Shown: positions 30,532 to 34,483 of the stretch, piece after piece | How the letters are laid out: each line of letters begins with the position of its first letter | Numbering within the stretch: the stretch's first letter is position 1 | Source: Eubacterium sp. | GTDB lineage: Bacteria > Bacillota > Clostridia > Lachnospirales > Lachnospiraceae | DNA: 36,825 nt | Assembly: GCA_017437905.1 (NCBI GenBank) | Contig: JAFRWY010000016.1 | Coordinates: 1 to 36,825, forward strand | Reading direction: 5' to 3' | Notes under the pieces: generated by a model | Told to the model about the DNA's origin: nothing | What the model saw: only the letters and a program-made list of their open reading frames with translations | The model's database searches: none | Translations under genes and position numbers: made by a program

Positions 30532-30571
30532 TCCCGGTTCATCCGTAATGGGTGAACCGGGACTTTTTTTT
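30532..30571 (+). terminator. Rho-independent terminator closing the feo region
   Basis: TCCCGGTTCA (30532-30541) pairs perfectly with TGAACCGGGA (30553-30562), followed by a C and eight T residues. A second hairpin (GGACC and GTTCC with GGAAC and GGTCC, 30488-30516) precedes it. Confidence 0.92.
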
Positions 30572-30626: not shown

Positions 30627-30716
30627 AGATCCATATGAGTTTTCCAGATACCCGTGGTATGGTTTCGGAAGAACCGTAACGAAGGGATCTGAGGATTTCA
30701 GAAAGGATTGAGAGAG

Positions 30717-32297
30717 ATGAGAAAGCGCAGATTATTAACCATGACGATTGCAGGATGCATGGCACTGTCCATGGCATTTACCGGCTGCACGAAGAAGGAT
30801 GAGGAAACCACCGCTGCGGAAGCCACAACGGAAAGTGTCGCAACGGAGAGCGGCTCCACGGAACAGACCACGGAGAGCGGTTCCACGGAAGCGGCTACGG
30901 AGAGTCCTTCCACCGAAGCAGCCACGGAGAAGCCGGTGGATGGGAATATCACACTGGAGAATATCCGGGACTATGTGGTGGGGATCGATGAGCCGATCGA
31001 ACTGAAGGACGGTACCAAACAGGCACTGATCAATTTTGATAATGCGGCAACCACACCGTCCCTTTCACCGGTTTCGGCGATGGTGGAAGAGGAACTGAAA
31101 ATGTACGGCTCCGTGGGACGCGGGTTCTCACAGAAATCCGATCATTCCACCGAACTTGTGGAAGCCACAAGAAAGAAAGTCCTCAGCTTTGTCGGGGCAG
31201 ATACGGAGAATAATGAGTATGTGTGTGTATATACAAATAATACCACGGACGGCCTGAACAAGCTGGCGGCTGCACTGATCGAGAATAAGAGCGATGTGAT
31301 CCTTACCACCCGGATCGAGCACCACTCCAATGACCTTTCCTGGCGTGAGCGGGGCACCGTGATCTACGCGGAGGTGGATGAGCAGGGCCGTGTGAAATAT
31401 GAGGATATCGAGAAGCTTCTGAAGGAAAATAAGGTGAAGATCGTTTCCATCACGGCAGCTTCCAACGTGACCGGATACGTGACGGATGTACACCGGGTGG
31501 CTAAGCTGGCGCATCAGTACGGTGCTCTCCTGGTTGTGGACGGGGCACAGATCGTAGCACACCGGAAGTTTGAGATGAAGGGTGCTACCCCGGAAGAGGA
31601 TGTGGACTTCCTGGTATTCTCCGCCCATAAAATGTACACGCCTTACGGAGGCGGTGCGATCGTCGGCAAGGTAGAGCATATGTACGATAAAATGCCGGAT
31701 GTGTACGGCGGCGGTACCGTTCAGATCGTTGCGGACAATCGTCAGAATTATAAGAATCCTCCGGCCAGCTGGGAAGCCGGCTCTCCCAACTATCCGAGTA
31801 TCGTGGGTCTGAACAAGGCCATCGATATCCTGCAGGGAGTTGGATTTGACAAGATCGAAGAGCATGAGAAGGTTCTGAACCGCAGACTGATCGACGGCCT
31901 GAAGAAGTTCGACAACATCGTGATCTACGGGGATACGGAGAATATCGATGACCGTGTGGGCGTAGTCACATTTGACTTTACGGATCTGAATTCCTATTAT
32001 CTTGCAGTTGCCCTGAAGGAATATGGCGGAGTGGGTACACGCCGCGGATCCTTCTGTGCACAGCCCTACGTATGGAGACTGAAGGGTATTTCGGATGATG
32101 AGGTAGGCGGATTCGAGAACTGCGAAGGCGCACATGCGCCGGGCATGATCCGGATCAGCTTCGGTATCTACAATACAGAGGAAGAGGTGGACCGTTTCCT
32201 GGAGGCACTTCCGAAGGCCATCGAAGAGGCAAAGAAGGAAGTGAAGAGGATCACGGACGAAGATCTGGCATCGAAGCCCATCAAACCGGAGTACTAA
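30717..32297 (+). CDS. Predicted lipoprotein with SufS-like cysteine desulfurase / class V aminotransferase domain
   Basis: The 526-residue protein starts at ATG 30717, 9 bases after GAAAGGA. The N-terminus is a signal peptide with two to four Arg/Lys, a hydrophobic core and the lipobox AFTGC (Cys about residue 24), followed by about 45 residues of Thr/Glu/Ser-rich linker. The rest is a complete PLP enzyme: NFDNAATTP, EHHSNDLSW, VDGAQIVAH, the Schiff-base Lys in FSAHKMYTPYGGG, and near the end RRGSFCAQP, whose Cys matches the catalytic Cys of SufS-type desulfurases, and RISFGIYNTEEEV. This would take sulfur from cysteine or a related compound, but outside the membrane. All motifs look intact. 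Alternative substrates cannot be excluded. Confidence 0.85.
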   Translation: MRKRRLLTMTIAGCMALSMAFTGCTKKDEETTAAEATTESVATESGSTEQTTESGSTEAATESPSTEAATEKPVDGNITLENIRDYVVGIDEPIELKDGTKQALINFDNAATTPSLSPVSAMVEEELKMYGSVGRGFSQKSDHSTELVEATRKKVLSFVGADTENNEYVCVYTNNTTDGLNKLAAALIENKSDVILTTRIEHHSNDLSWRERGTVIYAEVDEQGRVKYEDIEKLLKENKVKIVSITAASNVTGYVTDVHRVAKLAHQYGALLVVDGAQIVAHRKFEMKGATPEEDVDFLVFSAHKMYTPYGGGAIVGKVEHMYDKMPDVYGGGTVQIVADNRQNYKNPPASWEAGSPNYPSIVGLNKAIDILQGVGFDKIEEHEKVLNRRLIDGLKKFDNIVIYGDTENIDDRVGVVTFDFTDLNSYYLAVALKEYGGVGTRRGSFCAQPYVWRLKGISDDEVGGFENCEGAHAPGMIRISFGIYNTEEEVDRFLEALPKAIEEAKKEVKRITDEDLASKPIKPEY

Positions 32298-32315
32298 GAT
32301 CATTCCGGAAGCATA

Positions 32316-32360
32316 GAACGGGGACAGGTTGGAATTCATGACCTGTCCCTGTTCTTTTTT
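32316..32360 (+). terminator. Rho-independent terminator after the desulfurase-like gene
   Basis: GAACGGGGACAGGT (32316-32329) pairs with ACCTGTCCCTGTTC (32341-32354) with one wobble, then six T residues. On the minus strand it also has a T-run and may end the facing remnant. Confidence 0.9.
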
Positions 32361-32681: not shown

Positions 32682-32716
32682 ATGAAGACTGATTGGTTAT
32701 TCGAATGGGGAATCAT

Positions 32717-34483
32717 ATGAAATTTTTGCTTGTTGCGGTAAATGCAAAATATATTCATTCCAATCCGGCCGTATATTCGCTTTATGCCTATTCCGCAGGA
32801 AAGTATGCGGACATGATGGAAATAGCGGAATATACGATCAACCAGAAAAAGGAGGATATCCTGGCAGGGATCTATGAGAGAAAGCCGGATGCCGTGGGAT
32901 TTTCCTGCTATATCTGGAACAGAAGCATCATCGGGGAGTTACTGGAAGATCTGCCGAAGGTTCTGCCGGAGGCAGATATCTGGCTGGGCGGACCGGAAGT
33001 GAGCTTCAGTGCTCCGGAGGTGCTCCGTCAGTATCCGGAAATAAAAGGGATCATGGTGGGAGAAGGGGAGGTAACCTTCTCTGAGATCCTTCGGCAGTAT
33101 CTGCGGCCGGAAGGACCGGATTTTACCGGTGTGGCCGGGCTTTATCTTAAGTCGGGATACACCCGGCCGAGGGAGATCACGGACCTGAGCCGTCTTCCTT
33201 TTCTGTATCAGGAGACGGAAAGCTTTGCCAACAGGATCATTTATTATGAAAGCAGCAGAGGCTGTCCCTACCGGTGCAGTTATTGCCTCTCTGCTATCGA
33301 TAAGACGGTAAGATTCCGGGATATCGAACTGGTGAAGCAGGAACTGGATTTCTTCCTTAAGGCCGGAGTGAGACAGGTGAAATTCGTGGACCGGACCTTC
33401 AACTGCGGACATGAACACGCCATGGAGATCTGGCAGTATCTGCATGAGAAGGATAATGGGATTACGAATTTTCATTTTGAGATAGCTGCAGACATTCTTA
33501 GGGATGAGGAGATAGAGCTCCTTCAGAGTATGAGACCGGGACAGGTGCAGCTGGAGATCGGTGTCCAGTCCTTCAATGAAGATACACTCCGGGCTATCAA
33601 CCGGAGGATGGATAAGGACAGGCTGATCCATGTGGTTTCCGAGATCCGTAAGAACCGAAATATCCACCAGCATCTGGATCTGATCGCGGGGCTTCCCTAT
33701 GAGGATTATGAGAGTTTCGGGAATTCCTTTGACCGGGTGTACGCCATGGAACCGGATCAGCTGCAGCTGGGATTTCTAAAGATGTTAAGCGGTGCGCCCA
33801 TCGCCCTGGAGGCGGAGGAGTACGGGATCGTCTATACGAAGCAGCCGCCTTATGAAGTGCTGGGTACAAAGTGGCTTTCCTATGCGGATGTGATCCGGCT
33901 GAAGAAGATCGAAGAGATGGTGGAGCTCTACTATAACAGCAATCAGTTCGTACATACGCTTCGTTATCTGAAGAGGACATTTGCTTCGCCTTTCCGGATG
34001 TTTGAAGCACTTTCGGAGTATTACGAGAAACACGGTCTTTTTATCAACAGTCCTTCGAGAGCATACCGGTATAAGGTGTTGCTGGATTTTGCTTCGGAGG
34101 TTGATCCGGGACGGAATGCGCTATACACGGAGCTGATCACTTATGATCTTTATCTGCGTGAAAACATGAAGAGCCGGCCGGAATTCTGCAGATCCCTGAC
34201 AGATGAGGCATATAAGAATTTCAGACATGCCTTTTATCAGGAAGAGGAAAAGACAAGGCGGTATCTGCCGGATCTGAAACAGTATGACAGTCGCCAGCTT
34301 TCGGGGATCACACATCTGGAACCATTTTCCTATCCGGTATGGGATACGGAAAGTTTCGATCAGTGGGAGGAAGGAGATGCTTCCGGAGAGGAACGGTATA
34401 TCCTTTTTGACTATACCCGAAAGGATCCGCTGACGAAGGAGGCGTTTACTATCTGCATCAAAAAAGAGGATTATGATGCATAG
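32717..34483 (+). CDS. B12-binding-domain radical SAM protein (DUF4080 type)
   Basis: The 588-residue protein has an N-terminal cobalamin-binding-like Rossmann domain (FLLVAVNAKYIHSNPAVYSL, IWLGGPEVSFSAPE, GEGEVTF) and a radical SAM barrel with the cluster motif SRGCPYRCSYC (CX3CX2C). Conserved barrel segments VKFVDRTFNC, FEIAADIL, IGVQSFNEDTL and LDLIAGLPYEDY follow. The C-terminal about 200 residues match the DUF4080-type extension found in Clostridia. The ATG at 32717 follows GGGGA by 6 bases; earlier in-frame starts (32693, 32705) lack ribosome sites. These enzymes probably modify methylated or complex substrates, but the reaction is unknown. It has no obvious partner gene here. Confidence 0.88.
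   Translation: MKFLLVAVNAKYIHSNPAVYSLYAYSAGKYADMMEIAEYTINQKKEDILAGIYERKPDAVGFSCYIWNRSIIGELLEDLPKVLPEADIWLGGPEVSFSAPEVLRQYPEIKGIMVGEGEVTFSEILRQYLRPEGPDFTGVAGLYLKSGYTRPREITDLSRLPFLYQETESFANRIIYYESSRGCPYRCSYCLSAIDKTVRFRDIELVKQELDFFLKAGVRQVKFVDRTFNCGHEHAMEIWQYLHEKDNGITNFHFEIAADILRDEEIELLQSMRPGQVQLEIGVQSFNEDTLRAINRRMDKDRLIHVVSEIRKNRNIHQHLDLIAGLPYEDYESFGNSFDRVYAMEPDQLQLGFLKMLSGAPIALEAEEYGIVYTKQPPYEVLGTKWLSYADVIRLKKIEEMVELYYNSNQFVHTLRYLKRTFASPFRMFEALSEYYEKHGLFINSPSRAYRYKVLLDFASEVDPGRNALYTELITYDLYLRENMKSRPEFCRSLTDEAYKNFRHAFYQEEEKTRRYLPDLKQYDSRQLSGITHLEPFSYPVWDTESFDQWEEGDASGEERYILFDYTRKDPLTKEAFTICIKKEDYDA

Follow-up and report, generated by a model that had tools for sequence, protein, structure and literature searches.

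An open reading frame of 526 amino acids lies on the forward strand of the window, by which we mean the whole stretch of 36,825 nucleotides of Eubacterium sp. DNA that was analysed (30717-32297, with the ATG at 30717 and the stop codon at 32295-32297). As listed in Table 1, the predicted product consists of a lipoprotein signal peptide, a linker and an Aminotran_5 domain, and a terminator-like hairpin lies on either side of the gene. The closest solved relatives by sequence were SufS proteins, with B. subtilis SufS the best of them (phmmer 6.5e-54; profile 1.6e-68), and Cys447 was aligned against the catalytic Cys of that enzyme. The 12 rows compared differed in the length and the sequence of the linker. 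When the enzyme domain was compared with those of seven orthologues, dN/dS ranged from 0.07 to 0.12; the domain is under purifying selection. An AlphaFold model built from alignment A1 without templates was too weak for a judgement on Cys447-Cys469 (mean pLDDT 65.6, pTM 0.69), with residues 445-448 scoring below 50.

Table 1. The enzyme gene, its parts and its borders, with positions in the window
Feature	Position	Strand	Basis
Terminator-like hairpin between the feo cluster and the enzyme gene, 14 pairs	30532..30562	+	Hairpin scan
GAAAGGA, ribosome-binding-like, before the ATG	30701..30707	+	GAAAGG recurs in 8/9 rows read
Whole gene, exported cysteine desulfurase-like lipoprotein (predicted), 526 aa	30717..32297	+	ORF, Pfam, dN/dS
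Sec/lipoprotein signal peptide (predicted), residues 1-23, ending in FTG	30717..30785	+	Rule; LspA and Lgt, no TatC
Cys24 of the lipobox AFTGC, predicted to be lipidated	30786..30788	+	Sequence, rule
Linker rich in Thr/Glu/Ser/Ala, about residues 25-77	30789..30947	+	Sequence
Aminotran_5 domain (class V aminotransferase / cysteine desulfurase fold), residues 105-494	31029..32198	+	Pfam, E 1e-84
Lys305 of SAHK (302-305), aligned to the PLP lysine	31629..31631	+	Invariant in 19/19, 60/60 and 11/11 rows
Cys447 of FCAQP (446-450), aligned to the SufS catalytic persulfide Cys	32055..32057	+	Invariant in 19/19, 60/60 and 11/11 rows
Cys469, second Cys, in the lengthened loop past the catalytic Cys	32121..32123	+	19/19 exported rows
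Terminator-like hairpin just 3' of the gene, 17 pairs	32315..32355	+	Hairpin scan

Lipoboxes were called by a scripted rule resembling PS51257. Residues 1-24 of the window protein (MRKRRLLTMTIAGCMALSMAFTGC) were called by this rule, as were 66 of 10,000 shuffled versions of its first 60 residues. A stricter Gram-positive pattern asks for L, V, I, A or M at position -3, where the window protein has F. At the nucleotide level, GAAAGG stood no more than 20 bases 5' of the 24-codon signal in eight of the nine rows read, the window included. The signal opened with ATG in seven of these nine and with TTG in L043, while the cut stretch of L041 had no start codon at its head. Relative to the window, silent changes in the signal codons outnumbered replacing ones in seven of the eight other rows, the exception again being L041 (4 silent, 11 replacing). 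Across the eight comparisons the signal gave a dN of 0.12-0.26 and, in the six where it was computable, a dS of 0.77-2.69.

The window's own genome contains LspA and two matches to Lgt. No TatC match was found in it (completeness given as 100%, 133 contigs), by a search that rang in 11 of 14 control genomes. With Lgt and LspA present and no match to TatC, gene content points to Sec export followed by lipidation, rather than Tat, as the likely route. The initial annotation had also noticed an RR-LL in the start region, faintly like a twin-arginine signal; Tat export on the strength of this hint was rejected because the genome has no TatC match.

Relatives of the enzyme were drawn from 61 related genomes, from named genome contigs, and from 299 genomes of the family, 344 of the order and 398 of the phylum. 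Loci were made for 30 of the 41 order-level and 30 of the 50 phylum-level genomes with matches, and further cousins stand outside the tree. Same-genome duplicate loci, the broken copy L071/L127 and L128 (a second copy of L069) were left out before counting, and the SufS-type rows were thinned by keeping every second fetched row. L127 (G437:C37) is a broken version of the exported enzyme from a different family within the order, its pieces lying in two frames. Nineteen distinct intact rows were about 60% or more identical to the window protein. An export signal was called by rule in 18 of these 19, against 2 of 60 cousins (36-53% identical) and 0 of 11 SufS-type rows. The remaining clade row, L011, is truncated by a contig end, and the two cousins that passed, L014 and L069, both seem false by eye. 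The lipobox rule called 12 of the 19 clade rows and none of the 60 cousins; L044 (PAGC) resembles a thirteenth by eye.

The 19 rows formed a single clade, with an SH-aLRT of 100 in a tree of 90 rows and a bootstrap/SH-aLRT of 100/99 in a tree of 62. The signals within it were of several types: lipobox, plain Sec, Sec with an Ig-like domain and, once, a rhodanese as well. Lipobox and plain Sec signals changed into one another at least three times within the clade with export kept, when L044 was taken as lipobox by eye and L011 was omitted. The N-terminus of L052 holds a signal and a Big_2 domain (4.4e-7), and L046 is a single open reading frame of 908 amino acids running from a signal through Big_2 (6.8e-6), rhodanese (1.4e-16) and a middle part to Aminotran_5. 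The join to rhodanese was seen once, in L046, which comes from one metagenome-assembled genome. By eye, a middle part of the L046 type also precedes the enzyme domain in L050, so the join of middle part and enzyme in L046 is not unique. Twelve of the 13 clade loci in named genomes carry a rumen or RUG title, RUG presumably meaning rumen uncultured genome.

These sequences suggest that export is conserved across the clade. The initial annotation had predicted a lipoprotein and had named homologues starting past the lipobox as a sign to the contrary. For the window protein the prediction held, in that the signal has its lipobox and close homologues keep an export signal. Late-starting homologues were not seen in the close clade, where 18 of 19 rows passed the export rule; they are, by contrast, the norm among the cousins, 58 of 60 having no signal by rule.

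Nine active-site positions, K305, H304, D275, Q278, H202, N250, R442, C447 and R479, were invariant in 90 of 90 rows (19/19 exported, 60/60 cousins, 11/11 SufS-type). The SufS-like domain, with its PLP Lys (SAHK) and catalytic-Cys segment (FCAQP), was thus as intact on alignment as it had been described, and the homologue search proposed with that description found the export signals, this Lys and this Cys all conserved in the close clade. A Cys at position 445 and a Cys in the loop never occurred together in the 79 exported and cousin rows: 46 had the first, 28 the second (among them L053, at a different place in the loop) and 5 neither. As this exclusion rests on three to four changes on the tree, it has no significance once kinship is counted, and an exchange of Cys445 for Cys469 was not retained.

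FeoB and a FeoB-associated Cys-rich protein are encoded upstream of the enzyme in the same direction, and a tie to ferrous iron import had been put forward as a tempting but unproven idea. In 17 other loci, with flanks ranging from less than 1 kb to about 10 kb, no neighbour was a FeoB relative. Nor was any conserved neighbour of the exported enzyme found, the widest family occurring in 3 of 18 loci and being STAS-kinase-type by eye. The greedy ORF caller used recovered the enzyme in 17 of the 18 loci, an antisense ORF having won in L058. The hairpin scan returned 3 terminator-like sites, against 2.5 expected in shuffles. Hairpins on both sides of the gene and the lack of synteny in these other loci disfavour the link to the feo genes, and the idea was set aside.

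As raw counts among the cytoplasmic-looking cousins, a DsrE-type (DrsE_2) gene was adjacent in 4 of 25 contexts and a Mn catalase was at most two genes away in 3 of 25, with Pfam applied to three of the four former cases and two of the three latter. One cousin adjoins FUR and ferritin-type genes. The cousins L148, L146, L063 and L136, near Mn catalase, DsrE-type and, once, FUR and ferritin-type genes, hint at a role in oxidative stress. Further neighbours were assigned by eye: SufD and SufU in L066, IscS/ThiI in L068, and serpin-like exported proteins near the enzyme gene in L038 (6200-7915) and L043 (7967-9682), of which one bears a lipobox-like signal and the other choline-binding-like repeats. 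Downstream in the window, past an orphan ORF on the opposite strand, lies a gene for a B12-binding radical SAM protein with DUF4080 (32693-34483, +).

Two rhodanese matches were found in the window's own genome. One of them, on contig C66 (26215-26577, L129), lies in an open frame of 323 amino acids with a lipobox signal, a linker and CRSGVR, and is 64% identical to the fused rhodanese domain of L046. Among 37 genomes of the same genus, rhodaneses of this type (E up to 1e-10) occurred in 6 of 8 with the enzyme versus 8 of 29 without it (Fisher p 0.034, uncorrected for kinship or incomplete genomes). Across all enzyme-bearing genomes the type was found in 13 of 19, in one as the fusion, and none was seen in the other 6. 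Twelve of these 13 rhodaneses pass the export rule. Of the 13, the L186 copy is cut short and begins within the domain, a stop codon interrupts the match in L190, and L187 has a lipobox that looks doubtful by eye.

In the 299 genomes of the family, this type of rhodanese was found in 63 at 1e-20, namely in two of the four that have the exported enzyme and in 61 of the 295 others. Rhodanese loci were made for the better matches; of the 66 that were read, 43 had a lipobox by rule, a further 9 had a signal by rule and the remaining 14 passed on neither count. As 61 of the 63 family genomes with this type have no exported enzyme, most such rhodaneses live without it, and the link between enzyme and rhodanese, although suggestive, is not tight. 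The one rhodanese fusion and the separate lipoprotein rhodanese nevertheless make it more plausible that persulfide or sulfide would be released outside the cell.

We assign a probability of roughly 0.5 to the reading that the gene encodes a surface-held, PLP-dependent, SufS-like cysteine desulfurase that passes sulfur to an exported rhodanese or to small thiols. The protein would leave by its Sec lipoprotein signal, be lipidated and, through the flexible linker, stay attached to the outside of the membrane. There, with PLP bound at Lys305, it would convert free cysteine to alanine and keep the sulfur as a persulfide on Cys447. From this Cys the sulfur would pass to the exported rhodanese (fused in L046, a separate lipoprotein here) or to small thiols as sulfide, and Cys469 in the longer loop might act as a relay. 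The protein has the signal, its clade conserves signals and catalytic residues, the genome has Lgt and LspA and no TatC match, and rhodanese occurs both fused and separate. From these we infer the location, the loading of PLP, cysteine as substrate, the acceptor and the role of Cys469.

In support of the surface desulfurase we counted the 18 of 19 rows passing the export rule, the three or more changes of signal type, the invariant active site, the low dN/dS, the rhodanese link and the DsrE-type neighbours of cousins. Counted against it were that an enzyme exported by Sec would have to fold and take up PLP outside the cell, that the fusion occurs in a single protein, that no neighbour is conserved, that rhodanese is common without the enzyme and was not seen in six of the 19 enzyme-bearing genomes, that motif and loop differ from SufS and that the AlphaFold model is weak. 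A more specific version, which we hold tentatively and would sooner doubt than accept, is a sulfane-sulfur relay on the membrane's outer face in rumen Lachnospiraceae and relatives, running from the Sec-exported enzyme, loaded with PLP outside, through Cys469 to an exported rhodanese lipoprotein or a fused rhodanese; it would be an extracellular counterpart of the SufS-SufU and DsrE relays of the cytoplasm.

As the motif and loop differ from those of SufS, the substrate or the reaction may differ too, and a PLP enzyme that shares this fold and is exported could instead carry out, for example, lyase, racemase or transaminase chemistry on amino acids or peptides outside the cell. FCA in place of HHCA, a Cys loop about 17 residues longer, Gly in the glycine-rich loop in 79 of 79 rows and an NCBIfam sufS score of 297.7 against a cut-off of 475.1 are all consistent with this, and PvdN, said to work in pyoverdine maturation, would be a precedent. 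We nonetheless regard a different reaction as unlikely, given that the nine active-site positions, the persulfide Cys included, are invariant, that a rhodanese is fused in one relative, that DsrE-type genes adjoin cousins and that the best solved relatives are SufS. Rather improbable as well, in our estimate, is an exported cysteine or cystine desulfhydrase or desulfurase that gives sulfide and alanine with no protein acceptor, the rhodanese being incidental. Such an enzyme would need no conserved adjoining partner, and none was found; six of the 19 enzyme-bearing genomes yielded no rhodanese, which is common without the enzyme, and the longer Cys loop is as in class I enzymes, going by excerpts of a review (PMC8300815). 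What speaks for an acceptor is the rhodanese fused in L046 and the greater frequency of rhodanese in enzyme-bearing genomes of the genus.

The two other readings carry far less weight with us. The signal might be unused, either because translation starts past it or because the protein stays inside; the cousins do begin at the domain, and GTG codons stand at residues 74, 87 and 88. This is very improbable in view of the GAAAGG that precedes the signal in eight of nine rows, the mostly silent changes within the signal in 7 of 8, the other kinds of export signal in relatives and the Big_2 and rhodanese extensions in frame. Surface iron-sulfur chemistry tied to the adjacent feo genes, for which their position upstream on the same strand is the argument, we find scarcely credible, with terminator-like hairpins between and after the genes and no FeoB among the neighbours of 17 other loci, some of them short-flanked.

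The role generally ascribed to cysteine desulfurases is to supply sulfur within the cell. Should the surface desulfurase be the correct reading, persulfide chemistry would take place outside the cell, in a clade that has kept export signals through several changes of type and has left its catalytic residues unaltered, and the question would arise how a Sec-exported enzyme obtains PLP. Sulfide or persulfide on rumen bacteria might then come from this enzyme. On sequence grounds, some gut bacteria, the majority of them described from the rumen, seem to carry outside the cell an enzyme of a normally intracellular kind, which would remove sulfur from cysteine. No description of an exported or surface cysteine desulfurase was found in the portions of the open-licence literature consulted. 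A term search of one review (PMC8300815) for extracellular, secreted, periplasm, lipoprotein, membrane-bound and signal peptide gave none of these, and one proteomics paper lists a cysteine desulfurase in its secretome table.

Several known or related systems can be set beside the window protein. The cousin family of Bacillota (about 450 amino acids, 36-53% identical, no curated name found) has the same active site, FCA followed later by Tyr451 and, in most members, the long Cys loop. CFC is found in 46 of the 60 cousins; the exported clade is without that first Cys but has Cys469. Like the family 2A encapsulin cargo cysteine desulfurase, the window protein has a SufS-like domain after a long low-complexity N-terminus, although its score on the cargo model NF041166 was 211.8 bits, below the cut-off of 800. 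The same genome has a possible sulfur-storing encapsulin locus on contig C44 (32981-34096 and 31086-31358; L003, L067, L130), whose SufS-like protein of 596 amino acids, with a low-complexity N-terminus, scored 784 bits on the family 2A cargo model (cut-off 800); by eye, a ThiF-like rhodanese protein is encoded upstream of it. PvdN of Pseudomonas, reportedly a periplasmic class-V PLP enzyme of pyoverdine maturation that travels folded by Tat, is alike in being an exported enzyme of that class and differs in that the window genome has no TatC match. PspE and a Geobacter rhodanese-like lipoprotein likewise put rhodanese outside the cytoplasm; nothing returned by the literature search joined them to a cysteine desulfurase-like domain, unlike the rhodanese of L046.

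The nearest comparison is with SufS/CsdA type II enzymes, with which the window protein shares the Aminotran_5 fold, the PLP Lys, the catalytic Cys and seven more active-site positions. On alignment its PLP lysine, the His that stacks on the ring, the Asp, the Arg that binds substrate and the catalytic Cys all fall in register with SufS. The segment from the Lys to Glu353 has 48 residues in 15 of the 19 exported rows and 49 or 50 in the other 4, compared with 48 in 11 of 11 SufS-type rows; judged by length alone, the clade thus matches the type II insertion (a beta-hairpin) near the PLP Lys. Asn181, found in 90 of 90 rows, sits at N99 of E. coli SufS by our reading of the alignment. Excerpts of a study of that enzyme describe N99 variants as independent of SufE and the glycine-rich loop as part of a beta-latch that protects the persulfide (PMC10011822). 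In that loop, Gly333 replaces the Glu/Asp of SufS in 79 of 79 exported and cousin rows.

Around the catalytic Cys, RRG(S/A/Q)FCA was found in 19 of 19 exported rows, unlike the RXGHHCA given as the type II consensus in the review excerpts (PMC8300815). The residue before the Cys is F in 79 of 79 exported and cousin rows and H in 11 of 11 SufS-type rows. The Cys-Arg spacing is 32-33 in 19 of 19 exported rows against 15 in 11 of 11 SufS-type rows, making the Cys loop about 17 residues longer. This long loop is reminiscent of class I enzymes, for which the same excerpts describe an insertion after the Cys, tying the short class II loop to partner dependence (PMC8300815). The extra Cys469 and the export signal further mark the clade off from SufS, and on the NCBIfam model TIGR01979 (sufS) the window protein scored 297.7 bits, under the cut-off of 475.1; L046, L012 and L045 likewise stayed below that cut-off. 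Since two SufS consensus features are missing and the curated cut-off was not reached, we class the window protein, which may work like a SufS, not as SufS but as a member of an exported clade of a SufS-like family.
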